From Myxococcales bacterium (GTDB lineage: Bacteria > Myxococcota_A > Polyangia > Polyangiales > Polyangiaceae): 64,000 nt of DNA. The position numbers and the translations under genes are program-made. The notes under the pieces are model-generated. The model searched no databases. It was not told the origin of the DNA and was given only the letters and a program-made list of their open reading frames with translations. Below, piece by piece: positions 36,282 through 53,225 of this stretch (the stretch's first letter is position 1; each line of letters starts with the position of its first letter). The stretch covers positions 1 to 64,000 of the forward strand of contig CAHJWM010000002.1 in assembly GCA_903642325.1 (NCBI GenBank). The letters run 5' to 3'.

Positions 36282-37424
36282 ATGGCTGGCAATGAGACCG
36301 GAAAAGGCGCCCAGGCGCTGATCGTACTGGCGGCCGCAGCGATAGTTGCGGCCGCTATAAAGCTAGCGGCTGGGTTCATCGCACCTCTCTTGGTGGCCGC
36401 CTGCATCGCGATTGCGGTGCAGCCTATCTTCCGGCGTGTTCATAGCTCGCGCATTCCTGATGTCAGTGCGATCGTTATTTCATTGCTGGTGGTAATAGGG
36501 CTGTTGGTTGGAGTCGGCGCTCTCATGGTCGTTGCATTGGCCAACCTGAGCGGCTCGGCGGCACAGTATTTGGCGTCGCTGCATCAAGTTCAGCTGCAAG
36601 CTACGGTTTGGTTGGAAGCTCACCATCAGCACGCGATCGCGCAGTCGCTGTACGGGTCGCACGTCGAGCAGCTCATGCAGCAGGCTACCTCTTTCGTGAT
36701 GACTAGTGTCCCTACGGTGCTGTCCACCGTCGTCACGGTTTTGCTGCTGATCGTGTTCATGCTGCTCGAGGTGACGACGATGCCACGCCGCGTTCACGCC
36801 GCGCTCGGCTGGTCCCCGAGCACGTTCACCGAATTCTCGCGGACGATGTCGGAAATTCAGCGGTATCTGAGCGTGAAAACCGCGACCAGTGCGGCTACCG
36901 GGCTGTGCGCGGGGTTGTGGTGCGCCGCGTGCGGGGTGCCAAACCCGGCACTTTGGGGCCTCGTCACCTTCGCGCTTCATTACGTGCCGACAGTGGGTAG
37001 CCTCGTCGCAGCTATGCCTCCCATCTTCATCGCACTGACCGCGTTCGGGATCGGTCGTGCGTCCGCGGTCGCGGCGGGCCTGGCTTTGTTTAGCTTGGTG
37101 ATCGGAAACTTCATCGAGCCCAATGCCCTCGGGCGTTCTCTCAGCGTATCTCCGTTGATTGTACTGCTTTCGATGTTTGCATGGGGCTACTTGCTTGGTC
37201 CCATCGGCGCACTGCTATCCGTCCCGCTCACCCTCATTGCGAAGATCGTTTTATGGAACACGAGTGACCTGCACTGGGTCGCCGTTTTGCTTGGGCCGAC
37301 TCCGCCGGCAACGGCTCGCATCACTGATCTTGGCGCGCCACCAGGTAGAGATTCGCTCTTGCCGCAGCCGAAGGGGACATCGTCTGCCAGCCGGCCGTCG
37401 GTGCCGCGCGCCAAAGTGCTCTGA
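36282..37424 (+). CDS. AI-2E family transporter (permease)
   Basis: A 380-aa polytopic membrane protein with about 8 transmembrane helices. The family core is present: IAPLLVAACIAIAVQPIFRR, a central extracytoplasmic segment (residues 90-150), then YVPTVGSLVAAMPPIFIAL, GNFIEPNALGRSLSVSPLIVLLS and WGYLLGPIGALLSVPLT near the end. The family includes E. coli TqsA (AI-2 export) and Na+/H+ antiporters; substrates are mostly unknown, so no autoinducer role is claimed. It is the last gene of the sigma-54 unit that starts at 35536. Confidence 0.9.
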   Translation: MAGNETGKGAQALIVLAAAAIVAAAIKLAAGFIAPLLVAACIAIAVQPIFRRVHSSRIPDVSAIVISLLVVIGLLVGVGALMVVALANLSGSAAQYLASLHQVQLQATVWLEAHHQHAIAQSLYGSHVEQLMQQATSFVMTSVPTVLSTVVTVLLLIVFMLLEVTTMPRRVHAALGWSPSTFTEFSRTMSEIQRYLSVKTATSAATGLCAGLWCAACGVPNPALWGLVTFALHYVPTVGSLVAAMPPIFIALTAFGIGRASAVAAGLALFSLVIGNFIEPNALGRSLSVSPLIVLLSMFAWGYLLGPIGALLSVPLTLIAKIVLWNTSDLHWVAVLLGPTPPATARITDLGAPPGRDSLLPQPKGTSSASRPSVPRAKVL

Positions 37425-37688
37425 CCGCTACGGTCCACTCCAACTCGATCAGCAAAATCGAGCATGTCTCGAAGCTCTCGAAGCGCTATTCTCGAGATAA
37501 GCCTCCGCCTCGAGCCGCGTGGATCTATATCCCCCGTTAGCACACAGGCTGGGGATTACTTCGGGCCTCTTCACGGAGCCCTCGATATTGCAGATTCGCG
37601 GTGCCGCTAACTCCGCGGCGGTACGAGCAGCAGAGGTCGGGTTCGCGCGGTCACCGGCCGAGGTGCGGCGACGGCGCGTGGTGAGCGC

Positions 37689-39104
37689 TCAGACGGCGAT
37701 CACGACAGAAGCCCCGTCGACCGGCTGAGGCTCGGAATCCGGGACGAGGTCGTCCGAGGCGTACCGTTCGAGCTTGCGATGCAGGGTGCGACGGTCAAGG
37801 CCGAGAGCGTGCGCTGCCCTTGATTTATTGCCTTCCAGAAGTTTTACGACTCGCACGATGTAACGACGTTCAAGCTCGTCTAGGGGTACGATTTCGCCTG
37901 GTTCGTCCGCCGGCAGCACGAGCTTACCGGTACGTTGGGCCCGAAGCCGTGGCGGGAGATCATCGATGCCGAGATGGTCGAAACGAGCCAGGGCCACCGC
38001 ATGCTCCATGCAGTTTTCAAGCTCGCGGACGTTTCCCGGCCAATCGTAGGCCAAGAGACGCTCGGCAACCACGGATGGGAGATACATCTCCCCCTTATGA
38101 CTTCGTTCTGCGGAGCGTCTGAGGAAGTAGCTGGCTAACTTCAGCACGTCGCCTGTTCGGTCCCGAAGCGGCGGTACGTCAATCTGAACCACGTTGATTC
38201 GATTCAACAGATCCTCGCGAAAGCGTCGTGACACAACCTCCTCCTGGAGGTCGCGGTGGCTAGCGGCCACGATTCGTGTCGCGAACGCGATCTCGTCATT
38301 GGAGCCCACGGGGCGCACGGTTCTCTCCTCCAACGCGCGCAGTAACTTGGACTGCATCTCCAATGGCATGTCGCCTATCTCGTCGAGGAACAGCGTGCCC
38401 CCCGAGGCGCGCACGAACAGGCCCTCTTTGGCGGATTTCGCGTCGGTAAAGGCGGACTTTGCGTGCCCAAACAGCTCGCTTTCAAGTAAACCTGCCGGCA
38501 GCGCTGCACAGTTTATAGCTACGAATGGCCCATCCGGACGAGCTCCGGCAGCGTGCAGCGCCCGCGCCACGCGCTCTTTCCCGGTGCCTGTTTCTCCCTG
38601 AATGAGCACAGAAGCTTCGCTTGCCGCGACGCGACGTATAGTGTCGTACACGCGGCGCATCGCGATGCTGTCGCCGATTAGCTGCTTATCGGCCGTGGAG
38701 TCCTTATCAGAACGCAGCTTCTTCACCTCTTGCTGCAATCGTTGGTGCTGGGCAGCGCGCGCGACACACAAGCCGAGCAGCTTCTCATCCACCGGTTTGG
38801 CCAGAAAATCATAGGCACCGGCGCGCAGCGCGTTAACGGCAAACTCCATATTTGCGTGGCCGGTGACAGCGATGATGGGTGCTTCTACGCCGCGCCCGAG
38901 TAGGCGCTCGCACAATTCGAAGCCGTCCATAGGAGACATGCTCAAATCGGTGATGATTACGGAGAAACGCTCGCGAGTGGCGTGGTCTAACGCTTCTTCC
39001 GCCGATGTCGTCGCGGTCACGCCCCAGCCAAGTCGAACCAACATGGCGCGAAGCAGCTCGCAGTGATCTTGATCATCGTCGACTAGCAGGATCGAATTTC
39101 TCAT
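37689..39104 (-). CDS. NtrC-type sigma-54 enhancer-binding response regulator (EBP1)
   Basis: A 471-aa regulator from ATG 39104. Receiver domain (1-120): acidic pocket LVDDDQD, phospho-acceptor Asp in VIITDLSM, VTGH and Lys in FLAKPVD. AAA+ domain (about 140-370): Walker A GETGTGKE, Walker B GGTLFLDEIGDMP and an R-finger region. The sigma-54-contacting loop reads SAFTDA in place of GAFTGA. The C-terminal Fis-type HTH is LEGNKSRAAHALGLDRRTLHRKLERY. It is divergent from its paralogue EBP2; the 466-nt gap holds a sigma-54 promoter for each. No cognate kinase lies next to it. Confidence 0.93.
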   Translation of the reverse strand: MRNSILLVDDDQDHCELLRAMLVRLGWGVTATTSAEEALDHATRERFSVIITDLSMSPMDGFELCERLLGRGVEAPIIAVTGHANMEFAVNALRAGAYDFLAKPVDEKLLGLCVARAAQHQRLQQEVKKLRSDKDSTADKQLIGDSIAMRRVYDTIRRVAASEASVLIQGETGTGKERVARALHAAGARPDGPFVAINCAALPAGLLESELFGHAKSAFTDAKSAKEGLFVRASGGTLFLDEIGDMPLEMQSKLLRALEERTVRPVGSNDEIAFATRIVAASHRDLQEEVVSRRFREDLLNRINVVQIDVPPLRDRTGDVLKLASYFLRRSAERSHKGEMYLPSVVAERLLAYDWPGNVRELENCMEHAVALARFDHLGIDDLPPRLRAQRTGKLVLPADEPGEIVPLDELERRYIVRVVKLLEGNKSRAAHALGLDRRTLHRKLERYASDDLVPDSEPQPVDGASVVIAV

Positions 39105-39155
39105 AATAAACTCGGCAGATTTCACCGGCTTAGGCGGGACCTAAGCGCGCTTGGC

Positions 39156-39171
39156 TGCAAAGGGCGTGCCC
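39156..39171 (-). promoter_or_regulatory. Sigma-54 promoter of EBP1
   Basis: Minus strand GGGCAC-GCCCT-TTGCA, one mismatch in the -24 hexamer, perfect -12 and GG-N10-GC spacing. The predicted +1 is 39145, a 41-nt leader before ATG 39104. Confidence 0.75.
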
Positions 39172-39188
39172 GCATTCCGGCCGGATTT

Positions 39189-39234
39189 GCCGATATAATC
39201 GGCCGTGTCGGCGTTTTTCAGGATGCAAAACGCC
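39189..39234. promoter_or_regulatory. Two inverted repeats, candidate enhancer sites for EBP1
   Basis: GCCGAT-ATA-ATCGGC (39189-39203) and GGCGTTTT-N9-AAAACGCC (39210-39217 and 39227-39234) are both perfect. They lie about 20-65 bp upstream of the EBP1 -24 element. Dimeric Fis-type HTH activators bind such sites. The binding protein is inferred. Confidence 0.55.
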
Positions 39235-39424
39235 ACAACCGCGTTTGCCCTCGAGGCGGACCGCCGCGAACGTCGATAGGCTTTACATGATCATGCGTTT
39301 GAGTAACACAAAGAGAACCGTGCGCAGTGCGCGCGACCATCGAGCGTGCGGCTCTCGATAGGCGTGGCCGTTCGCTACACCGGTCGCAAACTTGTCACGG
39401 ATAGGCTTGAATTATGCCGCATCC

Positions 39425-39473
39425 GTGTGTGCCCGGTGGCGCACACTACTGTAGATCTAAGCGAGCGCACACT
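39425..39473. promoter_or_regulatory. Inverted repeat plus half-site upstream of EBP2 promoter
   Basis: GTGTGTGCC-CGGT-GGCGCACAC (39425-39446) is an 8-of-9 inverted repeat, and its right arm recurs as GCGCACACT at 39465-39473. This lies 10-60 bp upstream of the EBP2 -24 element and is a candidate activator site. Confidence 0.5.
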
Positions 39474-39482
39474 GTGGCATGT

Positions 39483-39498
39483 TGGCACGTCACTTGCT
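39483..39498 (+). promoter_or_regulatory. Sigma-54 promoter of EBP2
   Basis: TGGCAC-GTCAC-TTGCT, a full match to the -24/-12 consensus with GG-N10-GC spacing. The predicted +1 is 39509, a 62-nt leader before ATG 39571. Confidence 0.88.
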
Positions 39499-39570
39499 TA
39501 AGCGCGGCACATCCTTGGCTCCGCAGACTCGCTGGAGTGCTTGCGGCTGAACCCCCCCCCCACAGGTCCC

Positions 39571-40977
39571 ATGAGTAACGGTCGAAAGATCCTGGTCGTA
39601 GACGATGACGAAGCCACCTGTGACCTGCTTCAGATGATGCTGAAGCGGCAGGACTACGAAGCGGTTACCGAGACATCCGCGCGAGCGGCACTTAACCGGA
39701 TTGCCAACGAGGATTTCACCGCCGTGCTCACCGACTTGGACATGGCAGAGCTCGGTGGCATCGAGCTTTGCCAGCGTATCGCTGGGGTGCGCGCCGATAT
39801 CCCCGTGATCGTCGTTACCGGCATGGGCAGTTTGGAAAACGCGATCGCTGCGATGCGCGCAGGCGCTTTCGATTTCGTAACCAAGCCGGTCGATCCGTCC
39901 CTGCTGTCGATCAGTGTCAACCGCGCCGCTCAACATCGCGAGCTACGCGAAGAAGTCCGTCGTTTGAAGGAGAGCGCTTCCAGTCTCAAGGTCGACGGTG
40001 TAATTGGCACCAGCCCCGCCATGGAGCGCGTGTTTGATCTCGTCGCACGGGTCGCCGAGGGCGACGCCTCCGTTCTGATTGCGGGCGAAACCGGAACTGG
40101 CAAAGAGGTCGTCGCTAAAGCTATCCATCAGGCCAGCGGTCGCAAAGGCTCATTCGTGGCCGTGAACTGTGCCGCGATGCCCCCGCACCTTTTGGAGAGC
40201 GAACTGTTCGGCCACGCTCGCGGCGCTTTCACCGACGCGAAGTCACAGCGCACCGGCCTGTTCGCCCTGGCTGATGGCGGCACGCTCTTCCTCGACGAAA
40301 TTGGTGAGATGCCGCTGGAGATGCAGCCTAAATTGCTGCGAGCTTTGCAAGAACGCACTATCCGCCCCGTCGGCGCGAATATCGAGGTGCCTTTCGACGC
40401 TCGGGTGATCACTGCGACCAACCGGGACCTCGAGAGCGAGGTATACGAGAAGCGCTTTCGCGAGGATCTTTATTATCGGATCAATGTCGTCAAGATCGCG
40501 CTCCCGCCGCTCCGCGAGCGCGGGATGGACGTAGTGCATCTGGCCGCGCACTTCCTCGGCAACTTCGCGGCCAAGGGCAACAAAGGTGCGCTTACTTTGT
40601 CCGAAGGCGCGGCCGAAAAATTGTTGGCGTACAATTGGCCGGGCAATGTTCGCCAGCTCGAGAATTGCATGGAGCGCGCAGTCGCACTGGCGCGCTTCAA
40701 TCAGATATCAGTGGACGACCTACCTGAGAACGTCCGCGGCTACACTGCGGATCGCTTCGTGGTCGCGGTCGATGAGATGGCCGAGGTCGTAAGCATGGAT
40801 GAGCTCGAGCGCCGTTATATCCACCGCGTCTTGGCTCTTGTCGAAGGCAACAAGTCGCGCGCCGCGCAGCTTCTAGGATTTGACCGTCGCACCATGTACC
40901 GCAAGCTCGAACGTTATCAATCTCGGCAACAATCGTCGCGTGAGCACGAGGGTCCTAAGCGTGCTCCCGAAGCCTGA
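39571..40977 (+). CDS. NtrC-type sigma-54 enhancer-binding response regulator (EBP2)
   Basis: A 468-aa regulator from ATG 39571, closely similar to EBP1. Receiver: LVVDDDEATC, phospho-acceptor Asp in VLTDLDMAE, VVTGMG and Lys in FVTKPVD. AAA+: GETGTGKEVVAKAIH, sigma-54 loop GAFTDA (Gly to Asp at position 5), Walker B GGTLFLDEIGEMP. HTH: VEGNKSRAAQLLGFDRRTMYRKLERY. A histidine-kinase-like gene overlaps its end. Because it is preceded by a sigma-54 promoter, it may activate itself or be activated by EBP1. It is a strong candidate for master regulator of the surrounding regulon. Confidence 0.94.
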   Translation: MSNGRKILVVDDDEATCDLLQMMLKRQDYEAVTETSARAALNRIANEDFTAVLTDLDMAELGGIELCQRIAGVRADIPVIVVTGMGSLENAIAAMRAGAFDFVTKPVDPSLLSISVNRAAQHRELREEVRRLKESASSLKVDGVIGTSPAMERVFDLVARVAEGDASVLIAGETGTGKEVVAKAIHQASGRKGSFVAVNCAAMPPHLLESELFGHARGAFTDAKSQRTGLFALADGGTLFLDEIGEMPLEMQPKLLRALQERTIRPVGANIEVPFDARVITATNRDLESEVYEKRFREDLYYRINVVKIALPPLRERGMDVVHLAAHFLGNFAAKGNKGALTLSEGAAEKLLAYNWPGNVRQLENCMERAVALARFNQISVDDLPENVRGYTADRFVVAVDEMAEVVSMDELERRYIHRVLALVEGNKSRAAQLLGFDRRTMYRKLERYQSRQQSSREHEGPKRAPEA

Positions 40978-41623
40978 TCCGCGATTTTTAGCGATCACCG
41001 CCCACGATCTTCGAGGCGCTGTCGGGGTGCTCGATGGTGCCCTTAAAGAGCTCACACGTGAGCTTCCCAAAGACAGTCCCGACGCCGGGAAGCTCACTCA
41101 GATGATGGGTAGAAGCAGCCAACGACTGCTGCTCCTGGGCGATCGCCTGTCCTCACTCGCCAAGTTGATGGACGGCTCCGAGCTCGAGATCGGCGAAGCA
41201 GCGGATGTTACCTCGCTAGTCAAGGAAGCCGCCAACCGTGCCTTTTCAGCCCACGCTCGGCGCAGCCTGCAGCTCCGGATCGAAGGCGCGGCCGTTGCGT
41301 TGCCGCTTCATATGCCGAGCTTCGCGGCGGCGGTCTCCGAGCTGACGGCGTTATTTTGCGGCTTCTCGCAGCATGAGCTTCTGATTACCGTCTCGTCGAG
41401 CGCGAGTGCAGCGCGCATCGAGCTGATGAGCGACAACAAGAGTGAAAGCGTGCAGCGCGCGCTTCGCGACCGCTCCGCCATGACGCAGGCAAACGCGGGA
41501 ATCGCTTACGCGGAAGCCGTGCTAAGTCGCCATGGCGGGCGGGTCGAGCTCACCGAGCCCGGCTCCGATGCCGCCATCGCCCTCGTACTACCGCGCTCTC
41601 TACGAGCTTCCGCCGCAGGCTGA
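40940..41623 (+). CDS. Histidine-kinase-like protein with degenerate ATPase domain
   Basis: A 227-aa cytoplasmic protein. The HisKA dimerisation helix with phospho-acceptor His is clear (FLAITAHDLRGAVGVLDG). The C-terminal part ends like a HATPase domain (AYAEAVLSRHGGRVELTEPG then ALVLPRS), but the N-box Asn pattern and the DxGxG loop are not recognisable, so ATP binding is doubtful. There is no sensor or transmembrane domain. The start is GTG 40940 or 40961, within the EBP2 coding end, so translation is coupled. It may act as a phosphatase, phosphotransfer hub or anti-activator for EBP2. Confidence 0.75.
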   Translation: MSTRVLSVLPKPDPRFLAITAHDLRGAVGVLDGALKELTRELPKDSPDAGKLTQMMGRSSQRLLLLGDRLSSLAKLMDGSELEIGEAADVTSLVKEAANRAFSAHARRSLQLRIEGAAVALPLHMPSFAAAVSELTALFCGFSQHELLITVSSSASAARIELMSDNKSESVQRALRDRSAMTQANAGIAYAEAVLSRHGGRVELTEPGSDAAIALVLPRSLRASAAG

Positions 41624-41977
41624 TGCTGAAACTGGCCGGCGGTCGCTGCCGCCGACTCCAGTGTTGCCGCCCGCACCTCCGGAGGCCCCTGCCCTGGGCG
41701 TCGCATCGCCAAACGCGCCATGGTGTTCGACGGGGAGCCCGAACTCTGGACCCGGCACAAGCATGGTCGCCGTTGAAAGCGGCACGTGGTGCGCGCGCGC
41801 TACGGGACCGATCGGCGCTAGGCTCGCGTCAGAATTCCCCGGCGGAGTGGTGGATGCATCACTTCCGCCGACCGGTTCGACAACCCTAGCGTTCGTACGC
41901 GTACAGGAAGCTGCCGCCAACAAGCCAACGCACGTGAGTAGTGACAAGGCGGTGAGAAAGCGCGGCAGCTCGACCAT
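41600..41977 (-). CDS. Hypothetical lipoprotein
   Basis: A 125-aa protein from ATG 41977. The signal peptide (LPRFLTALSLLTCVGLLAAASC) ends in the lipobox AASC. The mature part is Pro/Gly/Ser-rich with no recognisable domain (VVEPVGGSDASTTPPG, GASGGAGGNTGVGGSDRRPV). A perfect sigma-54 promoter lies immediately upstream, with the predicted +1 two bases from the ATG; this is the main reason to accept the gene. Its 3' end overlaps the convergent kinase-like gene by 24 nt. An overlapping plus-strand frame at 41532-42041 is taken as a shadow. Confidence 0.7.
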   Translation of the reverse strand: MVELPRFLTALSLLTCVGLLAAASCTRTNARVVEPVGGSDASTTPPGNSDASLAPIGPVARAHHVPLSTATMLVPGPEFGLPVEHHGAFGDATPRAGASGGAGGNTGVGGSDRRPVSASACGGSS

Positions 41978-41989
41978 AAGGCACGACCG

Positions 41990-42005
41990 TGCAACCCACG
42001 TGCCA
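41990..42005 (-). promoter_or_regulatory. Sigma-54 promoter of the 41600-41977 lipoprotein
   Basis: Minus strand TGGCAC-GTGGG-TTGCA, an exact consensus match. The predicted +1 (41979) is two bases before the ATG. Confidence 0.88.
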
Positions 42006-42089
42006 CAGAGCAACGGTCCGAACACTCGGCAACCCGGTTGAAGGCGCGTACGAGATGCGAGCCCCCAAACTACCCGACACGCCTTGACT

Positions 42090-42281
42090 CTATGGGGCGC
42101 TTTGTTCTTTGCTGCGCGCTCGCGCGGAGGTTCGCATGGTAGCGATACTAACCACGTAGGTCACCGTGACCCCCGTTAGGAGCACGATGACCGCCGCTAT
42201 CAGGGAGTGGAACGCGACACTTGTGATGAAGGCCGCGACGAAGGCGATCGCGAGCGCTGCACCCTTCCATTGACGAGACAT
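42090..42281 (-). CDS. Small two-helix membrane protein
   Basis: A 63-aa protein from ATG 42281. Two hydrophobic helices (ALAIAFVAAFITSVAFHSLI and AAVIVLLTGVTVTYVVSIA) are followed by a basic tail (RTSARARSKEQSAP). No family is recognised. An in-frame GTG at 42302 is rejected because it lies inside the predicted sigma-54 promoter, whose +1 (42282) is one base before the ATG. It sits in the sigma-54 island and resembles DUF1328 in size and topology, though not in sequence. Confidence 0.72.
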   Translation of the reverse strand: MSRQWKGAALAIAFVAAFITSVAFHSLIAAVIVLLTGVTVTYVVSIATMRTSARARSKEQSAP

Positions 42282-42292
42282 AGCGTCGATTG

Positions 42293-42308
42293 AGCAAGCC
42301 ACATGCCA
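42293..42308 (-). promoter_or_regulatory. Sigma-54 promoter of the 42090-42281 gene
   Basis: Minus strand TGGCAT-GTGGC-TTGCT, one mismatch in the -24 hexamer and correct spacing. The predicted +1 (42282) directly precedes the ATG. Confidence 0.8.
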
Positions 42309-42328
42309 AAACCCGAATCACCATTATT

Positions 42329-42341
42329 CGCGTAAAACGCG
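42329..42341. repeat. Short inverted repeat in a divergent sigma-54 region
   Basis: CGCGT-AAA-ACGCG, perfect 5-bp arms, lies between the divergent promoters at 42293-42308 and 42462-42477. AGTTTATTAA also occurs twice in the same gap (42400-42409 and 42441-42450). Candidate activator or accessory-factor sites. Confidence 0.4.
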
Positions 42342-42461
42342 TGAAAATCGTTGCCTGTGTCAGCTTGGTCGCCCCGCTGAGGCGGATAGTCACACGAGAA
42401 GTTTATTAACGAATTACCGCAAATTCCCTATTAAAGCGGCAGTTTATTAAAAGCCCAAACA

Positions 42462-42477
42462 TGGCACGCCGACTGCA
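42462..42477 (+). promoter_or_regulatory. Sigma-54 promoter of the lipoprotein/DUF4398/OmpA operon
   Basis: TGGCAC-GCCGA-CTGCA, exact -24 hexamer with correct spacing. The predicted +1 is 42488, nine bases before ATG 42497. An open frame starting at 42461 would begin inside this promoter. Confidence 0.83.
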
Positions 42478-42496
42478 AAGAGCGCTCGCATTACAA

Positions 42497-42721
42497 ATGA
42501 ATATTTCGAGGGTTCTCGTCACCGCTGTGGCGACCTGCGTGTTCGCGGCCGCCTGTAGCTCAAACAAGCCGGCAAATAGTCCGGGGCCTGCGGAAGAGGC
42601 GGGAGCCAAGGTTGACGAAGGAGCCGCAGACGTTAAAGAGTCTGCGCAAGAGGCCGGCCACAAGGTTGGGGAAACCACAGAAAAAGCCGGTGAGAAGATC
42701 CAAACCAAGACTGGCGACTGA
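42497..42721 (+). CDS. Small lipoprotein with charged helical tail
   Basis: A 74-aa protein from ATG 42497. The signal peptide ends in the lipobox FAAAC (CSSNKPANS after cleavage). The mature part is a charged helix with YtxH/LEA-like repeats (AGAKVDEGAADVKESAQEAGHKVGE TTEKAGEKI). Such proteins are often induced by desiccation or osmotic stress; the function here is inferred only from composition. It is the first gene of a probable three-gene unit driven by the sigma-54 promoter at 42462. Confidence 0.8.
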   Translation: MNISRVLVTAVATCVFAAACSSNKPANSPGPAEEAGAKVDEGAADVKESAQEAGHKVGETTEKAGEKIQTKTGD

Positions 42722-42830
42722 GCGTTCGTCTCGTTGTCAAGTCGGCTAAGGTTCGGCGGCTCTCCGCGCCGCGCCGATAGCGGCAAACCGCACCTAAGAT
42801 TTATCCGTTACCTTCGTATAAGAGGAAAAT

Positions 42831-43190
42831 ATGCAATATTCCAAGTTCGTCATCTCCACGTCTGTATTGTTTGCTTTCGTTACGGCTTGCGGCGGCTCTG
42901 CTGTTCCGTTGGATAAGTTAACGGATGCGAAAGCCACTGTACGCGCTGCTCAAGAAGCTGGCGCCGAGAGCACGCCGCAAGCAGCATTGCACCTAAAAAT
43001 GGCGAATGACGAGCTGGCCTCTGCACAGAAATCGTCGGACGACAAAGACAACGACCGCGCGGTGCTGCTTTTGAACCAAGCGCAGTCTGACGCGGACCTA
43101 AGCCTGGCATTAGCGCGCGGGACCGCGGAGAAGCAACAGGCGCAACAAGCCCAGGCCAAGATTGACGGGCTGCTGAAGCAAGCGCAGTAA
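42831..43190 (+). CDS. DUF4398 lipoprotein
   Basis: A 119-aa lipoprotein. The signal ends FVTACGG, giving a lipid-anchored Cys. The mature domain is the DUF4398 helical hairpin (TDAKATVRAAQEAGAE, HLKMANDELASAQKSSDDKDNDRAVLLLNQAQSDADLSLALA) with a Gln/Ala coiled-coil end. GAGG lies 6 nt before the ATG. DUF4398 proteins are commonly encoded just before an OmpA-type protein with a similar N-terminal region, exactly as here. Confidence 0.87.
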   Translation: MQYSKFVISTSVLFAFVTACGGSAVPLDKLTDAKATVRAAQEAGAESTPQAALHLKMANDELASAQKSSDDKDNDRAVLLLNQAQSDADLSLALARGTAEKQQAQQAQAKIDGLLKQAQ

Positions 43191-43216
43191 CCCACAGGAT
43201 TTAGCAGGAGCATGTC

Positions 43217-44086
43217 ATGAAAATTTCGACGATTGCAGTTCTTACGAGCTTTTTAGCGGCCACCGCTTGCGCGGCGTCGACGCCTACCCCCGAGTTGGTC
43301 AGCGCGCGTCAGGCTTATGACCACGCGCGCACTGATCCATCCGCTTCTCTCGTTCCCGACAGTGTGCTCAGCGCCAAACAAGCGCTCGACAAGGCAGAGT
43401 CTGTGCACTCGAGTGACCCCCAATCGGATTCGGAGCGGAGCTACGCGTACGTGGCTCAACGACGAGCAGAACTCGCAGTAGCGCTGGCAGAGAACGCGAA
43501 GGCGAAACAGGACGCGGACGCCGCCGCCGCCCATTACACCGAGCTGCAGGACAAATTGCGAACTTCCGCGGTTGCCCAACTCGGCGCCGAACGCAATCAA
43601 GTAAACCAGCTCGGCTCTACCCTTGCGGCGGAGACCGACGCGCGGAAGGCTGCAGAAGCGCGCGCCGCTCGCGCCATGGAGAGCCTGGCCAAAATCGCCG
43701 CGGTGAAAGAGGAAGCGCGGGGCATGGTCATCACCTTGTCCGGTCAGGTGCTATTCGTGACGGGCAAGGCGGAGCTGTTGCCGGCGGCTCAGGACCAGCT
43801 CGATCAGGTCGCGAAGGCGCTCAAGGATCAAGGTGAGGTCAAACCGATGGTGGTGGAGGGCTATACGGATTCAGTTGGATCCGATTCGACGAACTTGACC
43901 CTCTCCAAAAACCGCGCGGAGTCGGTACGTACCTACCTCGTTAGCAAGGGCGTACCGAGTGACAAGATCAGCGCCGTTGGCAAGGGTAAGGCAAACCCGG
44001 TTGCGAGCAATGACACCGCCGACGGCCGCGCCAACAACCGTCGCGTCGAGATCGTGATCGGTGGCCCCAAGTCCGACGCGAAGTAA
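43217..44086 (+). CDS. OmpA-family lipoprotein with DUF4398-like N-terminal domain
   Basis: A 289-aa envelope protein. The signal ends TACAAS (lipobox-like). Residues 25-115 form a DUF4398-like helical hairpin, followed by a coiled coil (about 115-165) and a C-terminal OmpA peptidoglycan-binding domain (from about 175). The latter carries VLFVTGKAELLPAAQDQL, VEGYTDSVGSDSTNLTLSKNRAESV and the terminal ADGRANNRRVEIVI, including the Asp and Arg that bind diaminopimelate. It tethers the outer membrane to peptidoglycan. Last gene of its unit, followed by a terminator. Confidence 0.92.
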   Translation: MKISTIAVLTSFLAATACAASTPTPELVSARQAYDHARTDPSASLVPDSVLSAKQALDKAESVHSSDPQSDSERSYAYVAQRRAELAVALAENAKAKQDADAAAAHYTELQDKLRTSAVAQLGAERNQVNQLGSTLAAETDARKAAEARAARAMESLAKIAAVKEEARGMVITLSGQVLFVTGKAELLPAAQDQLDQVAKALKDQGEVKPMVVEGYTDSVGSDSTNLTLSKNRAESVRTYLVSKGVPSDKISAVGKGKANPVASNDTADGRANNRRVEIVIGGPKSDAK

Positions 44087-44118
44087 CGTCGACGCGGCTC
44101 TCTACAGGGGCCGCGCTA

Positions 44119-44157
44119 GGGCGTACCGAACATGTGTCCGGTGCGCCCGTTTCTTTT
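44119..44157 (+). terminator. Rho-independent-type terminator after the OmpA gene
   Basis: GGGCGTACCG (44119-44128) pairs with CGGTGCGCCC (44139-44148), 9 of 10, loop of 10 nt, followed by GTTTCTTTT. It lies 32 nt after the OmpA-family stop codon. Confidence 0.72.
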
Positions 44158-44329
44158 GCGCTGTTGTCATCCACATCAGGTAAGTGGTCGAAGGTCGCAT
44201 CGCCAGGAGACTTCGTCCAACGCGCCGCGCCGCCAACCTTAGCATGACGTTGAGGCGCCTCGCCGGCGAGGGTGGCCTTGGTAAGTTTGACGCCGCTACT
44301 TGCGCTTCACTTCGCGAGCCTGTGCGGCT

Positions 44330-44755
44330 TCAAAAGCCGTGCTGTGACTCGGGGGTCATCTCGTTGGGCGGCGAGAACGCCTCGGTGACCCGTTTTGGCG
44401 TGGCGATTGGCTTCAATGCCGCGTCATACCAGACCTCCTCGGCAAACATCAGGGTGCCGTCTTGCGCGTACCGAATACGCCAGTGCGCAAACCGCGAGCC
44501 AGACGGCGCTACGACCCACCCGCCGCGCTGCCAAACAAAGGTGGAACCCCGCCACGCCCAATGTCCGTCTGTCCAAACGGCTGAAGCACTCGGTGCGGGA
44601 GGAACTGTCTCTGCAAATGCCGCGGGCGGTGGATAGGGGACCGGCAGATACTCGGAGCGGGGTTGCCGCGCGTTGTCGGGCACGGGCAACGACGTCGAAC
44701 ACGCGAGGTTCGCGCACCCAACCAGGCATACCCAATGCAACAAACCGTAACTCAC
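44330..44755 (-). CDS. Lipoprotein with YXWGXW-like Trp-rich repeat
   Basis: A 141-aa protein starting at GTG 44755. A signal peptide ends near ANLACSTS, a lipobox. The mature part has a Pro-rich linker and a Trp-rich region (SAVWTDGHWAWRGSTFVWQRGGWV) like the YXWGXW-repeat lipoproteins common in Deltaproteobacteria. Function is unknown. It is divergent from the TamA-like gene, and the two candidate sigma-54 promoters share the 66-nt gap. Confidence 0.78.
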   Translation of the reverse strand: MSYGLLHWVCLVGCANLACSTSLPVPDNARQPRSEYLPVPYPPPAAFAETVPPAPSASAVWTDGHWAWRGSTFVWQRGGWVVAPSGSRFAHWRIRYAQDGTLMFAEEVWYDAALKPIATPKRVTEAFSPPNEMTPESQHGF

Positions 44756-44775
44756 AGCGTCTGAGTATTTTACGA

Positions 44776-44791
44776 AGCATGAACTGCGCCA
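44776..44791 (-). promoter_or_regulatory. Candidate sigma-54 promoter of the YXWGXW-like lipoprotein
   Basis: Minus strand TGGCGC-AGTTC-ATGCT, GG-N10-GC spacing, one mismatch in each element. The predicted +1 is 44765, ten bases before the GTG start. Confidence 0.55.
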
Positions 44792-44794
44792 CTA

Positions 44795-44810
44795 TGGCGC
44801 ACAGCTTGCA
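44795..44810 (+). promoter_or_regulatory. Sigma-54 promoter of tamA-tamB
   Basis: TGGCGC-ACAGC-TTGCA, one mismatch in the -24 hexamer, perfect -12. The predicted +1 (44821) is one base before the GTG start at 44822. Its -24 element and that of the divergent promoter form the palindrome TGCGCCA-CTA-TGGCGCA. Confidence 0.68.
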
Positions 44811-44821
44811 CGCCGCGTTCC

Positions 44822-46936
44822 GTGCTTCCGCTGAGACTTCGGCCCGCCGTGATCTCGGCTGCGGGCTCGGGCTACGCCTTTTTCTTTGCGCTACTCTCGC
44901 TAACCGCTGTGGCGTGCACTTCGGTTCCTCCGGGCCGCTCGGCCGTCAAGTCCGTCGAGCTCACCGGCAACGACTCGATTGATGCCGACGAGCTTCGCCA
45001 GAAGATTGCGACGGCCGATAGCCCCAAGTTTCTAGGGTTCTTCCAGGGCGTGGTCTACGACTGGAACGTCTTCGATCGCTTCGTGCTCGAGCGGGACCTG
45101 CAGCGAATCGAACGCTATTACAGGGCGCGTGGCTATTACCAAGCGCGCGCACGCGCCGGGCGCGTGTTTTTCATATCGAGCAATAAAGTTCGTGTCGATA
45201 TCATCATCGAGGAGGGCACGCCCGTCGTCGTTGGGCGCGTGGACGTGCACGGCCTGCAAGGTCTGCCCGAGTCAGTGATTGCTGAGGTCACCAAACGACT
45301 GAAACGAAAGCTCAAGGTCGGCAAGCCATTCCAGGAAGAGAAGTTCGACGACGCCGGCAAGATCTTGCAAACTGCGCTCGAGGACAACGGCTACGCCTAC
45401 GCTAAGGTGGAGCGGGCGGCCGACGTGGATCTGCCGAAGGGCAAAGCGGCGGTGGGGTTCTTCGTAACGCTTGGCCCACTGACGCACTTCGGTGAAGTGA
45501 CGATCGCCGGGCTCGGCAAGATACCCGAAGAGCCGGTGCGCCGCGCGCTCGATCTTCACCCGGGCTCGCCGTACTCACGCGCCGAGCTCGAAGCGGCGCA
45601 GCGTGCGCTGCTCGATTTGAATGTGTTCAGCTCGGTCGTCATTGAACCCGACCTGAGTCGAGGTGAAAATCAAGCACGGCCCGAGGTACCGATTCGGGTC
45701 ACGGTCGAGCCAAGTAAGCTCAAGGCGATTCACGTGGGCGGTGGGGCCGAGATCGACTCATTGAAGTCCGAGGTACACCTAGTTGGTGGCTGGGAGCACC
45801 GAAACTTCTTTGGCGGCCTACGCAGTATTTCCTTCGAAGTGAAGCCGGGCGTCGTGCTTTACCCCACACATTTTCCGACGTTTCAAGCGCCTAAGAACTT
45901 CTTCCCGGAAGGTCGATTCAACGCCGCGTTTCGCCAGCCTGGTTTTTTGGAGCCGCGCACAGGCTTGTTCACGCGGCTGGATGGTTCGGTCGCGCCACTC
46001 ATCTTGTCATCAGAACAGACAAAAATTCTGGGCTATCGCGACATCCGCGTTACCGCCGGGTTGGACCGTTCCATGTGGCGGCTGTACGTCGCGCTCTCGC
46101 ATACCGTGCAGTTCGACAGCCCATTCGCTTACCTGGGTGGCTTGGACCGTGATCTGAAGTCGGTGGTTATCTCGTACCCCGAGCTGTTCGTGACGCTGGA
46201 CTTGCGCGATCAGCGAGTTCACCCGCACGAGGGGGCATTTCTAAGCGAGGACCTACAAATTGCCGGCGTTGGCGGCGCGGCCCGCGACGTTCGGACTCAG
46301 GCCGAGGCGCGCGGTTATATTCCACTCAGCCGGAAGTGGACGCTCGCTGCTCGAGTTACAGCTGGCCTGCTATTTCCGCAAAACTATGGGCAAAGCATCG
46401 AGGCGACGGCCCACAACGCGCAGTACGTGGAGGGAACCGATGAACGGCGAAAAGCCGTGCAAGACATCCAATTGATGTTCTTGCGGGGCTTCTTCTCCGG
46501 CGGTGCGGGCTCCAATCGCGGCTACGCTCTGCGTGAGATCGGGCCGCATGGCATCGTCCCGCAGGCGAGTACCGCAGCGGCACAATGTAGAGATCCCGAC
46601 CCGACCAAATGCATCCTAGATCTTCCGCTCGGCGGCTTTACGCTTTGGGAAGCTTCGGTCGAGCTCAGGTATCCGCTCTCCGGGGCTCTCACGGGGGCGT
46701 TCTTCATCGACACCAGCGACGTCTCTGACAAGAAGGTCAACTTTCGCCTCGATCGTCCGCATCTCAGCCCCGGTCTGGGCATCCGCTATGACACGCCGGT
46801 CGGGCCGATTCGGCTCGACGTTGGCTACCGCGTGCCGGGCCTGCAGTCACCTGCTAGCGATTCGGACGAATTGAACCCTGACACGTTGTTCGGAGCCCCG
46901 GTTGCGCTCTCCTTCGGTATCGGTGAGGCCTTCTGA
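44822..46936 (+). CDS. tamA: TamA-like BamA-superfamily outer-membrane assembly protein
   Basis: A 704-aa outer-membrane protein. A hydrophobic signal ends TAVACTS (lipobox-like Cys). POTRA domains follow (residues about 35-290: SVELTGNDSIDADELRQKI, GTPVVVGRVDVHGLQGLP, FGEVTIAGLGKIPEEPVRRAL). The C-terminal 16-stranded Omp85 barrel (from about 300) carries the signature RGFFSGGAGSNRGYALREIGP (the RGF/Y..R lid-lock motif) and ends TPVGPIRLDVGYR. The stop overlaps the tamB start (TGATG). The two form the TAM machine that moves lipids or inserts barrel proteins. GTG 44822 is the start. Confidence 0.9.
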   Translation: MLPLRLRPAVISAAGSGYAFFFALLSLTAVACTSVPPGRSAVKSVELTGNDSIDADELRQKIATADSPKFLGFFQGVVYDWNVFDRFVLERDLQRIERYYRARGYYQARARAGRVFFISSNKVRVDIIIEEGTPVVVGRVDVHGLQGLPESVIAEVTKRLKRKLKVGKPFQEEKFDDAGKILQTALEDNGYAYAKVERAADVDLPKGKAAVGFFVTLGPLTHFGEVTIAGLGKIPEEPVRRALDLHPGSPYSRAELEAAQRALLDLNVFSSVVIEPDLSRGENQARPEVPIRVTVEPSKLKAIHVGGGAEIDSLKSEVHLVGGWEHRNFFGGLRSISFEVKPGVVLYPTHFPTFQAPKNFFPEGRFNAAFRQPGFLEPRTGLFTRLDGSVAPLILSSEQTKILGYRDIRVTAGLDRSMWRLYVALSHTVQFDSPFAYLGGLDRDLKSVVISYPELFVTLDLRDQRVHPHEGAFLSEDLQIAGVGGAARDVRTQAEARGYIPLSRKWTLAARVTAGLLFPQNYGQSIEATAHNAQYVEGTDERRKAVQDIQLMFLRGFFSGGAGSNRGYALREIGPHGIVPQASTAAAQCRDPDPTKCILDLPLGGFTLWEASVELRYPLSGALTGAFFIDTSDVSDKKVNFRLDRPHLSPGLGIRYDTPVGPIRLDVGYRVPGLQSPASDSDELNPDTLFGAPVALSFGIGEAF

Positions 46937-49900
46937 TGCTCATGCCAAATCCTCAAAAACCCAAGACCGGACGCCTGAAACGCTACGCGCAGCGCGCCTT
47001 CGTTGGCGTCGGCGCCTTCCTAGGCTTGGTCGTGCTACTGGTCAGCGGTCTCCTGTTCTCGTTGCGCTTCGCGGGCGTGCGTCAATTCGTAGTCGGGAAG
47101 GTCAATGGCGCCCTAGCCAATGCTTTTCAGGGCAAGATAAAGCTACACAGCTTGCAGAGCATCGGCTTGGGCGGCATCGGCGCAGCCGACGCCGAGATCT
47201 TCGACCCCGCAGGCCGACGCGTTATGGACATTCATGGGCTCGACGTAAAGCTCAGTGTTCCGACGATTGCGTGGGCGGCAATCGCGCATAGCTCACAGCC
47301 GCTGACACTGAAGTTCGACTCGATTGCACTCCAGCACGCGGAGGTGCTGCTAGTCGATGACGGCAAAGGCTCCCCGACGTTGGCCGACGCCTTCCAGGCC
47401 AAGACGCCGAGCCCACCGAGCTCGGGCCCAGGCACGATCGTGATCATCGACGAGGCGCAGATCAGGCACCTTTGGGCGCACGGGTCATTGTCGTCTACCC
47501 CGCCCCTCGACGTCGAGCTCAAGGACGCTCTCGGCTCGCTCCGCATTGACGACGTAGCAACGACCGTCGCGTTCAGTAAAGCCAGCATTCAAGCGCGTGG
47601 TTTGCCTCAGGCCATTGACCCCGTGGGGCAACTGCAAGCAACGCTGCAGATCCCCGCCGCTCCAGCAAAGCCGCTCGGCGCGAAGGCGCACTTCGAAGGC
47701 TCAGCCGCGAACGTGCCGCTCGTGCTCGACGCGAGCTTCCTCGACAACCAGCTCGCGGCCACCATCGACGCCAGTAACATCCCGCCCGAAGCCGCGAACA
47801 AGCAAGTCCCCGGCTTGGCGCTCCGCTCACCCGCTTCGCTGCACGCGGCCGCGCAAGGAAAACTGCCGGACGTACACGGCAATTTCGCGCTTGGCGTGGG
47901 CGCAGGCAAAGTAGACGGCGACTTCCAGTTGTCGCTGAAGAACGAGCTCACGGCCAACACCAGCGTGCGGACGCATGACTTGGACTTGGCGGAGCTCGCT
48001 CCGAACGCGCCCCCTTCGGGCCTCGATATAACGCTGCGCGCGAACTTGCTCGTTCCCGAACACGGTCCTCAAACCGGCAAATTCGCGCTCGATACGGGCC
48101 CCTCCGTCGTAGCCGCCGAGACCGTGCCCGGCGTCGCTCTGAGCGGAACCTTTTCCTTGGATTCCAAGGCTCAGCGCACGCACGTCGAAGCTCATGCGAA
48201 CGTAGCCGAACCGGGCGCGCAGACCACCATCGATGCGACGCTCGAGCAAGCTAAGACCACGCGCGTGGAATTCAAGAGCCGGACCGAGGTTGTCAATCCA
48301 CCGCGGCTAAGGCGGCTGGCGGCCCTGGCGAGCGCGCAGGGTGAGCTGACTGCTCAGGGCACTTACCAGGTCGAGGGAAGCCACCTCGATGCCGACGTTC
48401 GCGCGGACTTACGAAATGTTCAGCAAGGTCAGAACCGCATTGCCCGTGCCAAGGTAACTGCAAACGTCGTCGGCGGGTTGCCTCACCCCGATGCCAAGGT
48501 GCTCGTGGATGTGACCAATGCGGAGCTCGGAGGCCAGCACGTGGCGACGGCGCTGGTCGCCGCACGCGGCTCACTGTCGCACTTGGCGGTCAGCGCGGAG
48601 GTCGCGACGCGCTCGCCTGAGCGACACGTGCAGGTCAGTGCGATCGTATCGAACGATCGTGGCATCGTCATCGATCATCCGAGCATCAACCTGACGCAAG
48701 ACAACACCCACGTTAAGATCGCGGCAGTGGGGATCGAGATGGTGGGCGGGCGCACCCGCGTCAATGCATTGCACGTGGAAGGGGTCGGTAAGGCAGACGC
48801 GTCCATGGTCTACGGGCCCACTCTGGAGAGTGCCAATGTACAGACACAGGCCCTCGATTTGGCGCGCCTGTGGCACTTGATGGATGCGCAAGCGCCGCTC
48901 CGCTCGGGCACGGCCACTATCTCTATGAGCTACGAGCGCCGGGGTGGTAACCCGAGCGCGCATATCAGCGCGCACAGCGATGATCTGACCTTCGATCGCA
49001 TCAAGGACGGTTCGATTGCGGCAAACCTCGAATTGAACGAGCAGCGGCTGAATGGGACTGCGAGCGCGGATCTCAAGCAGCTCGGACATATGAGCTTCGA
49101 CTTTCAGGACCTGCGCGGCATCAACCCCGACAACCTCGACCCCGCGGGCATAACCGGAAAAGTTGCGGTCGAGGGCCAAGTTCAGTTGCGTGATTTGAAC
49201 GATTTGGTGCCCAAGGACTCGAACCTGCCGATCGCCCGCATGCTCGGCACCATCAAGTACGATCTAGCCGTGGACCGGACCCACGCTGGCCCCGGTTTGC
49301 CGATGTTGCACGCGCACGTGAGCACGAAGAACCTTCAACTCGCTGGCGCGCGGACCTCTAAAACGACGATCAACACCAAAGAGGAAGCGATTGCCGCGGC
49401 GCCCGTGGCCGTAAAAGGTCTCGATGTCGACATCGACGTCACCCACGCGGAGACGGGCGAGACCGAGCTCGCCGCGAGCCTGTCGGACGAGCACGGCCGG
49501 CTGTTCGCGTTGAGCGTGGAGGGTAAAGCGACGCCCCATCTAGCGACGATTGCGAGCGAGCTCGGCAGCCAGTGGCAGCAGCTCCCGCTCAAGGTGAAGC
49601 TGACGGTGCCGCCGCGCGAGCTGCAGCAACTGCCGGTCGAGGTGAGACCCGCCGCGCTGAGCGGCGTCGCATCGGCACAGCTCGGTTACGAGGGAACGTT
49701 GAGCGCACCAAAGCTTACCTTCACTGGGAAGATCGACGGCTTCCGGCAGGACGCCACCAGTAAGAGAGCGCTCGATCTCGACTGGAACGCAAGCTACGAC
49801 GGCCTGCGCGGTAAGCTCGGCGCCAGCGCGAAATCAGGCGCAGCGGACGTGGCCAAGGTCGATATAAATCTCGAGACGGCGGTGAGCGGTTGGCTAAATC

Positions 49901-51606
49901 GGTCGGGCAGCACCAACCCGCCCTTGGACGCTAGCGCCCGCCTGTCCTTCGACGCCTTTCCAATCGCGCTCCTACCTGGCACCAGCCAAACCCAGGTCGA
50001 CGGCGCCTTGAGCGGGACGATAGCGCTCGATCACTTTGGCAAAGACGCGGCGGCGGACGCCTCCCTGGACGTCGCCTCTCTACAAATCGGCGCGTCGCCC
50101 TTCGGCCGCATTCACGCCGAGCTGCAAGCAAAAGACGGCAAAGGCAACGTCATGGTGCGCGTAGAGGGCGATCACGGCACGACCACGGCTGATGCCCGCT
50201 CCGGCCTAAATTGGGGCTCGCGTTACGTACCCGAGATCCAGATGCCCGCGGATGCCGCACTCCACGCGAAAGACTTGCGCATCGGCGCCTTTTCGCCATT
50301 CGTGGCTTCTACGTTCGGCGAGCTGGACGGCCGGCTCAACGGTGACTTGAATGCGCACTTCAAAGGCGGCGCCCCCGAGCTCGATGGCCACCTAGACCTA
50401 GACGATGGCGTTGCCCAAGTCGCTTCGCTCGGACAACGTTTCGACCAAATCAAAGCGCGCTTCTCGCTCGCGCCCGGCAAGGCAAAGCTCGAGCAGCTCA
50501 GCGCGCGCGCCACCACTGGGCGCGTCAACGTCACGGGCGAAGCGCGCTTTGCCGGCCTCAATCTGACCGGGGCCGAAGGGCATGTGCGCATGTCGAAATC
50601 GGATGGCGTAGCGATGTCCCTTTCGGGGACCGAAATCGTCGACACGTACGGCGGGATAGACATCAGCCTCACGCCGAACGAGACCACGCACGCGAACCTG
50701 CTCAAAGTGAACATCCCGAACCTGCACGTGGGCATGCCCGACACCGGCAGCCAAGATCTGCAAGACCTCGAGCCGGCCAAAGGCGTTCGCGTGGGCGTGT
50801 ATGAACGTCGGGGCGGCTTCGTAACGTTACCGCTGCAACCGCTCAAAGACACCGACCCGAGCAAGAACGACAACCCGATGGTCGTCGAAGTACACCTGGG
50901 CAGCATCGAGGTCCAGCGCGGGGACATGCTGAAGGCACAAGTGAACGGCGACTTGCACCTCGTGCTCGGTGACCCGATGACGATGAGCGGTCAAATCAAC
51001 CTGCAAGGTGGCAAGCTCGACGTTTCGGGCAAACAGTTCGAGGTGGAAAGCGGGACGGTCACTTTTTCCGGCGAGCCAGCCAATCCGACCATCGTTGCGA
51101 CGGCGCGCTGGGATTCGCCGGACGAAGACAAGCACCGCGTTTACGCGGACTTCACTGGTACGGCAACCAAGGGCAAGATCACGCTGCATTCCGAGCCCCC
51201 ACTAACCCAAGACCAGATCCTCAGCTTGCTTTTGACGGGTTCGGCTGACGGCTCGTTAGGCGGAGGCAGCAGCGGCAGCGGCAGTAGTGCCGCCACTGCG
51301 GTGGGCGCGGTGGGCGGGTCCGCCACACAAGGGTTGAACAAGGTGCTCTCGGGGATCTCGGACCTGGACGTGAGTACGCGCATCGACACCAGCACAGGCA
51401 GCGCGCGTCCCGAGCTCGTGATTCAGATTTCACCACGCGTAGCCGCCCAAATCACCCGCGCCCTGGGCGAGCCGGCACCGGGTCAGCCACCGGACTTGAC
51501 GTTTCTAACGTTCGATTTTCGAATCCGCAGCCATTGGTCTTTAGCTGCGTTGATCGGTGACCGCGGCGAATCAGGGTTGGACCTCGTGTGGCGCAAACGT
51601 TATTGA
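46936..51606 (+). CDS. tamB: TamB-like AsmA-superfamily translocation/lipid-transport protein
   Basis: A 1556-aa protein. One N-terminal transmembrane helix (about 18-42, FVGVGAFLGLVVLLVSGLLFSL) anchors it in the inner membrane. A very long repetitive beta-taco region with many DxxLxLxxG-like strands follows, and the C-terminal DUF490/TamB domain is typical: KGKITLHSEPPLTQDQILSLLLTG, GLNKVLSGISDLDVSTRIDTS and the final DRGESGLDLVWRKRY. TamB bridges the periplasm and carries phospholipids or assists TamA. A Ser/Gly-rich insert (SGSGSSAATAVGAVGG) interrupts the C-terminal domain. Coupled to tamA by TGATG. Confidence 0.92.
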   Translation: MLMPNPQKPKTGRLKRYAQRAFVGVGAFLGLVVLLVSGLLFSLRFAGVRQFVVGKVNGALANAFQGKIKLHSLQSIGLGGIGAADAEIFDPAGRRVMDIHGLDVKLSVPTIAWAAIAHSSQPLTLKFDSIALQHAEVLLVDDGKGSPTLADAFQAKTPSPPSSGPGTIVIIDEAQIRHLWAHGSLSSTPPLDVELKDALGSLRIDDVATTVAFSKASIQARGLPQAIDPVGQLQATLQIPAAPAKPLGAKAHFEGSAANVPLVLDASFLDNQLAATIDASNIPPEAANKQVPGLALRSPASLHAAAQGKLPDVHGNFALGVGAGKVDGDFQLSLKNELTANTSVRTHDLDLAELAPNAPPSGLDITLRANLLVPEHGPQTGKFALDTGPSVVAAETVPGVALSGTFSLDSKAQRTHVEAHANVAEPGAQTTIDATLEQAKTTRVEFKSRTEVVNPPRLRRLAALASAQGELTAQGTYQVEGSHLDADVRADLRNVQQGQNRIARAKVTANVVGGLPHPDAKVLVDVTNAELGGQHVATALVAARGSLSHLAVSAEVATRSPERHVQVSAIVSNDRGIVIDHPSINLTQDNTHVKIAAVGIEMVGGRTRVNALHVEGVGKADASMVYGPTLESANVQTQALDLARLWHLMDAQAPLRSGTATISMSYERRGGNPSAHISAHSDDLTFDRIKDGSIAANLELNEQRLNGTASADLKQLGHMSFDFQDLRGINPDNLDPAGITGKVAVEGQVQLRDLNDLVPKDSNLPIARMLGTIKYDLAVDRTHAGPGLPMLHAHVSTKNLQLAGARTSKTTINTKEEAIAAAPVAVKGLDVDIDVTHAETGETELAASLSDEHGRLFALSVEGKATPHLATIASELGSQWQQLPLKVKLTVPPRELQQLPVEVRPAALSGVASAQLGYEGTLSAPKLTFTGKIDGFRQDATSKRALDLDWNASYDGLRGKLGASAKSGAADVAKVDINLETAVSGWLNRSGSTNPPLDASARLSFDAFPIALLPGTSQTQVDGALSGTIALDHFGKDAAADASLDVASLQIGASPFGRIHAELQAKDGKGNVMVRVEGDHGTTTADARSGLNWGSRYVPEIQMPADAALHAKDLRIGAFSPFVASTFGELDGRLNGDLNAHFKGGAPELDGHLDLDDGVAQVASLGQRFDQIKARFSLAPGKAKLEQLSARATTGRVNVTGEARFAGLNLTGAEGHVRMSKSDGVAMSLSGTEIVDTYGGIDISLTPNETTHANLLKVNIPNLHVGMPDTGSQDLQDLEPAKGVRVGVYERRGGFVTLPLQPLKDTDPSKNDNPMVVEVHLGSIEVQRGDMLKAQVNGDLHLVLGDPMTMSGQINLQGGKLDVSGKQFEVESGTVTFSGEPANPTIVATARWDSPDEDKHRVYADFTGTATKGKITLHSEPPLTQDQILSLLLTGSADGSLGGGSSGSGSSAATAVGAVGGSATQGLNKVLSGISDLDVSTRIDTSTGSARPELVIQISPRVAAQITRALGEPAPGQPPDLTFLTFDFRIRSHWSLAALIGDRGESGLDLVWRKRY

Positions 51607-51710
51607 AAGGGCCGGCGACCCCGTCACACCCGCTTGCCGCAGTGAGGCAGCTTGCGTCATCGGGCGAGCGGTCTAAAGGCAGAAAATGCCGCGGTTTCGT
51701 GCCGACCTCG

Positions 51711-51726
51711 TGGCATGCCACTTGCT
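51711..51726 (+). promoter_or_regulatory. Sigma-54 promoter of the second YtxH-like gene
   Basis: TGGCAT-GCCAC-TTGCT, one mismatch in the -24 hexamer. The predicted +1 is 51737, a 43-nt leader with AGGAGG before ATG 51780. Confidence 0.82.
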
Positions 51727-51779
51727 GAGGGAGCCCCAAGCACATAGTGCATTCAGATGACCGCTAGGAGGATGCTTCA

Positions 51780-52139
51780 ATGAATCTCACGAAAACGTTG
51801 TGGACTTTGGGCTCGATGATCGGCGCTCAACAGGCGGCGAAAGCCGTGCAGGGCGTCGAATGGGACGACGTTCTCGGCGTCGTAGGCCTGGCGCGCCGCC
51901 CGGGGTTCTTCGCCCGAGCGTTGCCCGCGCTAGGGCTCATCGCCGTAAGCGCCGCCGTTGGGGCCGGTGCCGCTCTGCTGTTGGCCCCGAGCTCGGGCGA
52001 GGAGCTGAGGTCGCGGCTCTCTGACGGCCTGGACGGCGTCAAGAATCGCCTCGATGAGGCCAAGGGTCGCGTGAACGAGAAGATCAGCGACAAGATCAGT
52101 ACCTACGAGCAGCAGCACACCAGCAATTCGACTTCGTGA
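51780..52139 (+). CDS. YtxH-like small membrane protein, paralogue of 35536-35868
   Basis: A 119-aa protein. Same layout as its paralogue: helical N-terminus with VVGLARRPGFFARALP, glycine-zipper transmembrane helix LGLIAVSAAVGAGAALLLAPSSG, then a charged coiled coil (LRSRLSDGLDGVKNRLDEAKGRVNEKI) and a short polar tail. The two share the core sequence almost residue for residue, so they arose by duplication. Both have sigma-54 promoters but different partners; this one stands alone between tamB and the convergent brkB-like gene. Confidence 0.86.
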   Translation: MNLTKTLWTLGSMIGAQQAAKAVQGVEWDDVLGVVGLARRPGFFARALPALGLIAVSAAVGAGAALLLAPSSGEELRSRLSDGLDGVKNRLDEAKGRVNEKISDKISTYEQQHTSNSTS

Positions 52140-52162
52140 TAGAACCTCTGAAGTCCGCGAAG

Positions 52163-52206
52163 CCCCGCGAACACGAGCTAGTGTTGCGCGGGGTCGTTCG
52201 TTTGTG
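52163..52206. terminator. Bidirectional terminator between convergent genes
   Basis: CCCCGCGAACAC (52163-52174) pairs with GTGTTGCGCGGGG (52181-52193) with one bulged base and a 6-nt loop, followed by TCGTTCGTTT. It lies between the YtxH-like gene (plus) and the brkB-like gene (minus). Confidence 0.72.
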
Positions 52207-52230
52207 GGGAGGCGCGTGTATTTAAATGCT

Positions 52231-53142: not shown

Positions 53143-53157
53143 TTGTGTCGGGAATGT

Positions 53158-53173
53158 GGCTAATAGCGTTCCA
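53158..53173 (-). promoter_or_regulatory. Weak sigma-54-like site upstream of the brkB-like gene
   Basis: Minus strand TGGAAC-GCTAT-TAGCC, GG-N10-GC spacing with one mismatch at -24 and two at -12. The predicted +1 is 53147. Listed because of position; it could be chance. Confidence 0.3.
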
Positions 53174-53209
53174 AGACCGCAGTTTACTGCGTATTTAGCC
53201 TGCACATGC

Positions 53210-53225
53210 TGGCACGACCGCTGCA
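53210..53225 (+). promoter_or_regulatory. Sigma-54 promoter of the zinc metallopeptidase gene
   Basis: TGGCAC-GACCG-CTGCA, exact -24 hexamer and correct spacing. The predicted +1 is 53236, 60 nt before ATG 53296. Confidence 0.8.

Follow-up and report, generated by a model that had tools for sequence, protein, structure and literature searches.

Opposed predicted sigma-54 promoters between lipW and tamA-tamB in a Polyangiaceae genome and its relatives

The gap between the divergent genes lipW and tamA in the window (the whole stretch of 64,000 nucleotides that was analysed, from a soil myxobacterium) appears to be a compact sigma-54 divergon, in which the RpoN holoenzyme would bind in either of two opposed orientations. 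One orientation would serve tamA-tamB and the opposite one lipW. Whichever complex is bound would be opened by an NtrC-type activator, probably RR1 or RR2, which are both encoded in the surrounding island of sigma-54 sites. Overlapping by about 13 bp, the two complexes would form one at a time, so that the activator input would be divided between the two directions. Most transcripts of the group would have their 5' end at the start codon or no more than about 3 nt from it, with little or no leader. We assign a probability of roughly 0.78 to this reading, with its exclusive orientations, common activator input and mostly leaderless messages. The predicted promoters, their conservation, the phasing of start codons to them and the island are features of the sequence itself, from which we infer RpoN binding, mutual exclusion, the identity of the activator and leaderless translation.

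The promoter pair and its genes

On the minus strand, lipW (44330-44755) encodes a small Pro/Trp-rich lipoprotein that is weakly like WXXGXW repeat proteins; in relatives, Pfam matches to WXXGXW lay below the cut-off. The GTG at 44755 is the sole in-frame start after the upstream stop. On the plus strand, tamA (44822-46936) begins with a GTG and encodes POTRA repeats and an Omp85 barrel according to Pfam, and it is followed by tamB (46936-51606), which encodes a Pfam TamB domain. The 66 bp between the two GTG codons are nearly all promoter. The same genome contains a second tamA-tamB pair (L047, G000:C24:8437-10467), whose tamA shows 44% identity to the tamA of the window. In the 20 kb covered for this second pair, neither a lipW match nor a sigma-54 site of at least 13.5 bits was found.

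Sigma-54 sites were scored with a matrix whose weights were hand-set from general knowledge, and our conclusions rest on comparisons between scores, not on their absolute values. The predicted promoter of tamA-tamB, TGGCGCACAGCTTGCA, occupies positions 44795-44810 of the plus strand at 15.8 bits and belongs to the top 16 sites by score in the 464 kb of this genome that were scanned. The predicted promoter of lipW, TGGCGCAGTTCATGCT, occupies positions 44791-44776 of the minus strand and is the weaker of the two at 12.6 bits. Both combine TGG and GC elements at the strict spacing of sigma-54 promoters. The -12 element is TTGC (44806-44809) for the plus promoter and ATGC (44780-44777) for the minus promoter, each at the standard distance from its -24, as had been proposed in the initial annotation. 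By the convention that +1 lies 26 nt after the T of TGG, which may be 1-2 nt off the real start, transcription is predicted to begin at 44821 for tamA and at 44765 for lipW. The two promoters stand back to back, and in the window we found no inner core element common to both directions.

Conservation and start-codon phasing

We pooled 98 distinct tamA upstream regions, mostly from one family, among them 54 regions with a divergent lipW and 42 usable regions without it. Most of the genomes were assembled from metagenomes, and their related sequences are not independent of one another. Sites with the native spacer were present in 24 (plus) and 22 (minus) of the 54 regions with lipW, as against 1 and 0, respectively, of the 42 regions without it. 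Altering the spacer to 1-3 or 5-8 nt left 0-5 sites in either set. This native-spacer contrast is the main evidence at the sequence level that both promoter calls are right. Opposed pairs of sites of at least 10 bits were found in 9 of 29 related tamA upstream regions, where 0.03 would be expected from shuffles or local controls. About half of the lipW-bearing regions had no site above the cut-off, and among eight genomes of the same genus this was the case for three (L003, L006 and L007).

The predicted promoters in relatives are also phased to the start codons of the genes they would serve. For 12 of 24 sites on the tamA side, the predicted +1 was followed at 1-3 nt by an in-frame start codon (0.9 expected; P 1e-11), and the same held for 15 of 22 sites on the lipW side (0.8 expected; P 3e-17), both probabilities being calculated as though the sequences shared no ancestry. 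Out-of-frame start codons at the same positions numbered 1 on the tamA side and 0 on the lipW side. Since the starts are phased to +1, most of these mRNAs would be expected to have no leader or almost none. The phasing supports both promoters and would explain the compaction of the locus: without leaders, the gap is little more than promoter, and therefore the promoters overlap. In the window, the tamA GTG sits 1 nt past the predicted +1. The lipW GTG lies 10 nt past its own, which gives a predicted leader of 10 nt and falls off the pattern.

It could be argued from this last point that the tamA promoter alone is functional here, the minus site being either a relic or a match by accident, all the more so as the minus site has the lower score and ATGC at its -12. 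Such a reading would have to accommodate the relatives, where minus sites occur about as often as plus sites and show phasing to the start codon of lipW, and in the window itself no better site than the minus site lies upstream of the sole possible lipW start. We consider it unlikely that only the plus promoter functions. Conservation, strict spacer dependence and start-codon phasing together uphold both sigma-54 promoter calls that had been made from the window, and the observation of an opposed pair of predicted sigma-54 promoters is confirmed.

Strong sites elsewhere showed the same start-codon peak, but a smaller one. Two further starts in the island, ATG 41977 and ATG 35252, each lie 2 nt past the +1 predicted from a minus-strand site (41990-42005 and 35265-35280, respectively), and their fit indicates that the leaderless pattern reaches beyond lipW-tamA. 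With leaders of 40-60 nt in several genes of the island, leaderless genes would form only a subset. The phasing offers a means of correcting gene starts in these genomes.

Palindrome, geometry and competition

Separated by CTA (44792-44794), the two -24 elements of the window make the palindrome TGCGCCA-CTA-TGGCGCA (44785-44801), whose letters and coordinates had been reported exactly. The initial annotation had also raised the alternative that the palindrome is an activator site and the promoter calls are coincidental. An exact 7+3+7 inverted repeat in a regulatory position is indeed what the binding site of a dimeric regulator could look like. However, the window contains 11 such exact repeats, this one among them, and its exact form occurs once in the 5.8-Mb genome, which leaves no regulon for such a regulator. 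Relaxed matches were not commoner than in shuffles. The exact palindrome was absent from all 53 other lipW-tamA gaps, the nearest (L066) differing at 2 positions, although the promoters are conserved with their exact spacer and are phased to start codons. Two identical -24 elements standing back to back make a palindrome inevitable. We rejected it as an operator and regard a reading based on chance promoter matches as highly improbable; the palindrome is a by-product of the two predicted promoters and no separate element.

The arrangement of the promoters varied widely among relatives. At 9.5 bits, 19 promoter pairs were found, and one more (L070) fell slightly under this threshold. Minicystis rosea (L065, L069), a culturable relative, also has the pair. 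The T-to-T distance between the -24 elements is 4 in the window and takes values of 6, 7, 8, 9, 12, 14, 15, 17, 26, 28, 32, 73, 126, 153 and 162 elsewhere. Back-to-back pairs at 3-32 bp numbered 12, as against 0.14 expected. In four regions (L002, L005, L019 and L120) the promoters are face to face at exactly -27 and have a palindromic -12 TGCA in common (about 0.2 expected; P about 7e-5, for a test picked after the data had been seen), and these regions represent four separate changes on the tamA protein tree. The predicted pair thus appears to be kept while its arrangement turns over, and this turnover speaks against any role of the palindrome as such.

We also considered the shared -12 as a widespread genome-wide design and rejected it. 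In 108 family genomes, its pattern gave 12 matches, as against 2 and about 7 independent matches with altered spacers, and a reversed control pattern was equally common. The single strict match in this genome, TGGCGCGGACTATGCAACCGGTGCGCCA at G000:C2:181766-181793 (L138, L153), consists of two face-to-face sigma-54 sites with TGCA in common, and a plausible ATG is situated near the expected start of the minus transcript.

The closed complex of sigma-54 holoenzyme is taken here to have a footprint from -34 to -5. Placed on the window, such footprints would cover 44787-44816 for the plus promoter and 44770-44799 for the minus promoter, with an overlap of 13 bp (44787-44799). This overlap agrees with the steric argument made at the outset, that two RpoN holoenzymes could hardly bind together. 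Mutual exclusion of the polymerases would follow from the geometry, and the two directions would probably compete.

If the overlap had arisen from shrinkage of the gap only, then both promoters could be sigma-54 dependent and the two genes simply co-induced, with no meaningful competition. The T-to-T spacing in relatives, which spans 4 to 162 bp, is consistent with such a history. Because promoter spacing is not conserved, exclusion is no universal feature of the pair and would not everywhere be the selected function. In the window, the overlapping footprints speak against simple co-induction, as does what has been reported for the polymerases involved. When sigma-54 holoenzyme binds a promoter, it does so in a state inactive for transcription (PMC4591121), and competition of this holoenzyme for binding at overlapping sites has been proposed in E. 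coli (PMC4551910). At sigma-70 bidirectional promoters of E. coli, strong activation of one direction brought out competition (PMC12825309). We regard co-induction without competition as possible, at odds clearly below even, and prefer two mutually exclusive orientations for the promoter pair of the window.

The sigma-54 island and known systems

The promoter pair lies in an island of sigma-54 sites around envelope genes (34002-53225, both strands), to which the matrix scan assigned 10 sites of at least 15 bits: 34002+, 35265-, 35460+, 39483+, 41990-, 42293-, 42462+, 44795+, 51711+ and 53210+. Thus, 10 of the 16 sites of this strength in 464 kb fall within 19.3 kb round the locus. The genome has one rpoN and 34 activator-domain matches, not all of them at full strength. 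Two genes for NtrC-type response regulators, RR1 (37689-39125, minus strand; Pfam receiver, sigma-54 activation domain and Fis-type HTH) and RR2 (39541-40977, plus strand; assigned by Pfam), lie about 4-7 kb upstream of the promoter pair and are candidate activators. An RR2-like gene adjoins tamB in two sister genomes. The loop in which GAFTGA is usual reads SAFTDA in RR1 and GAFTDA in RR2.

A search of the island and of relatives for an activator-binding site found none. It gave a weak TGAGGC/GAGGCGGA signal confined to the island of the window, with no enrichment elsewhere in the genome or among relatives. TGAGGC(A/G) lies inside island sigma-54 gaps at 35361, 42378 and 51643 (3 seen, 0.4 expected) and also in three Labilithrix lipW-tamA gaps (L064, L066 and L070). 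It is a possible activator site, without support in other relatives. In four sister genomes (L038, L039, L040 and L041), a small membrane-protein gene whose product ends in SFPASDPP lies beyond lipW, reads towards it and has a strong sigma-54 site of its own; a similar protein is encoded in the window at 35873-36256.

The context of the locus fits the proposal that sigma-54 is a controller of the bacterial exterior (Francke et al. 2011, PMC3162934), and the predicted promoters would place the envelope module tamAB under sigma-54 in myxobacteria. The locus provides an example of a divergon in which the wiring is retained and promoter geometry turns over, and it suggests that mRNAs made with an activator-dependent sigma factor can enter leaderless translation. 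A broader claim would be that sigma-54 in Polyangiaceae makes leaderless mRNAs for many activator-dependent genes, with starts 1-3 nt past +1, and that lipW-tamAB repeatedly evolved overlapping promoters, including the shared -12 TGCA form, that divide one activator's output between two directions. We advance this claim tentatively, at odds just short of even. In the literature covered, most subscription journals being outside its scope, we came across neither an account of leaderless sigma-54 genes as a class nor one of paired sigma-54 promoters with a common -12.

Several known systems share parts of this arrangement. Like the TamA-TamB translocation and assembly module, the locus has a POTRA/Omp85 protein followed by a TamB-domain protein, and it differs in its divergent lipoprotein partner and its predicted sigma-54 promoters. 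With NtrC-activated sigma-54 promoters it has in common the consensus elements, the strict spacer, nearby activator genes and envelope gene content; here, however, two opposed promoters overlap, start codons would lie at +1 to +3 with no leader, and no enhancer site was found. Leaderless genes with a -10 region adjoining the open reading frame are known from Deinococcus-Thermus (PMC12340547), and they likewise combine a fixed, short distance from promoter to start with no room for a ribosome-binding site. Those genes use sigma-70 -10 elements, whereas the genes here have sigma-54 -24/-12 elements and many GTG starts. In Sinorhizobium, every mapped leaderless transcript starts with AUG (PMC3616915). 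The sigma-70 bidirectional promoters with a shared -10 (PMC12825309) are likewise pseudo-symmetric and can take polymerase in two exclusive orientations, as the pair here probably would, and the face-to-face class among our relatives resembles them further in having one common palindromic element, TGCA at -12. The promoters described here differ in being predicted sigma-54 promoters that would depend on an activator, and in the window it is the -24 ends, not the inner elements, that stand back to back.
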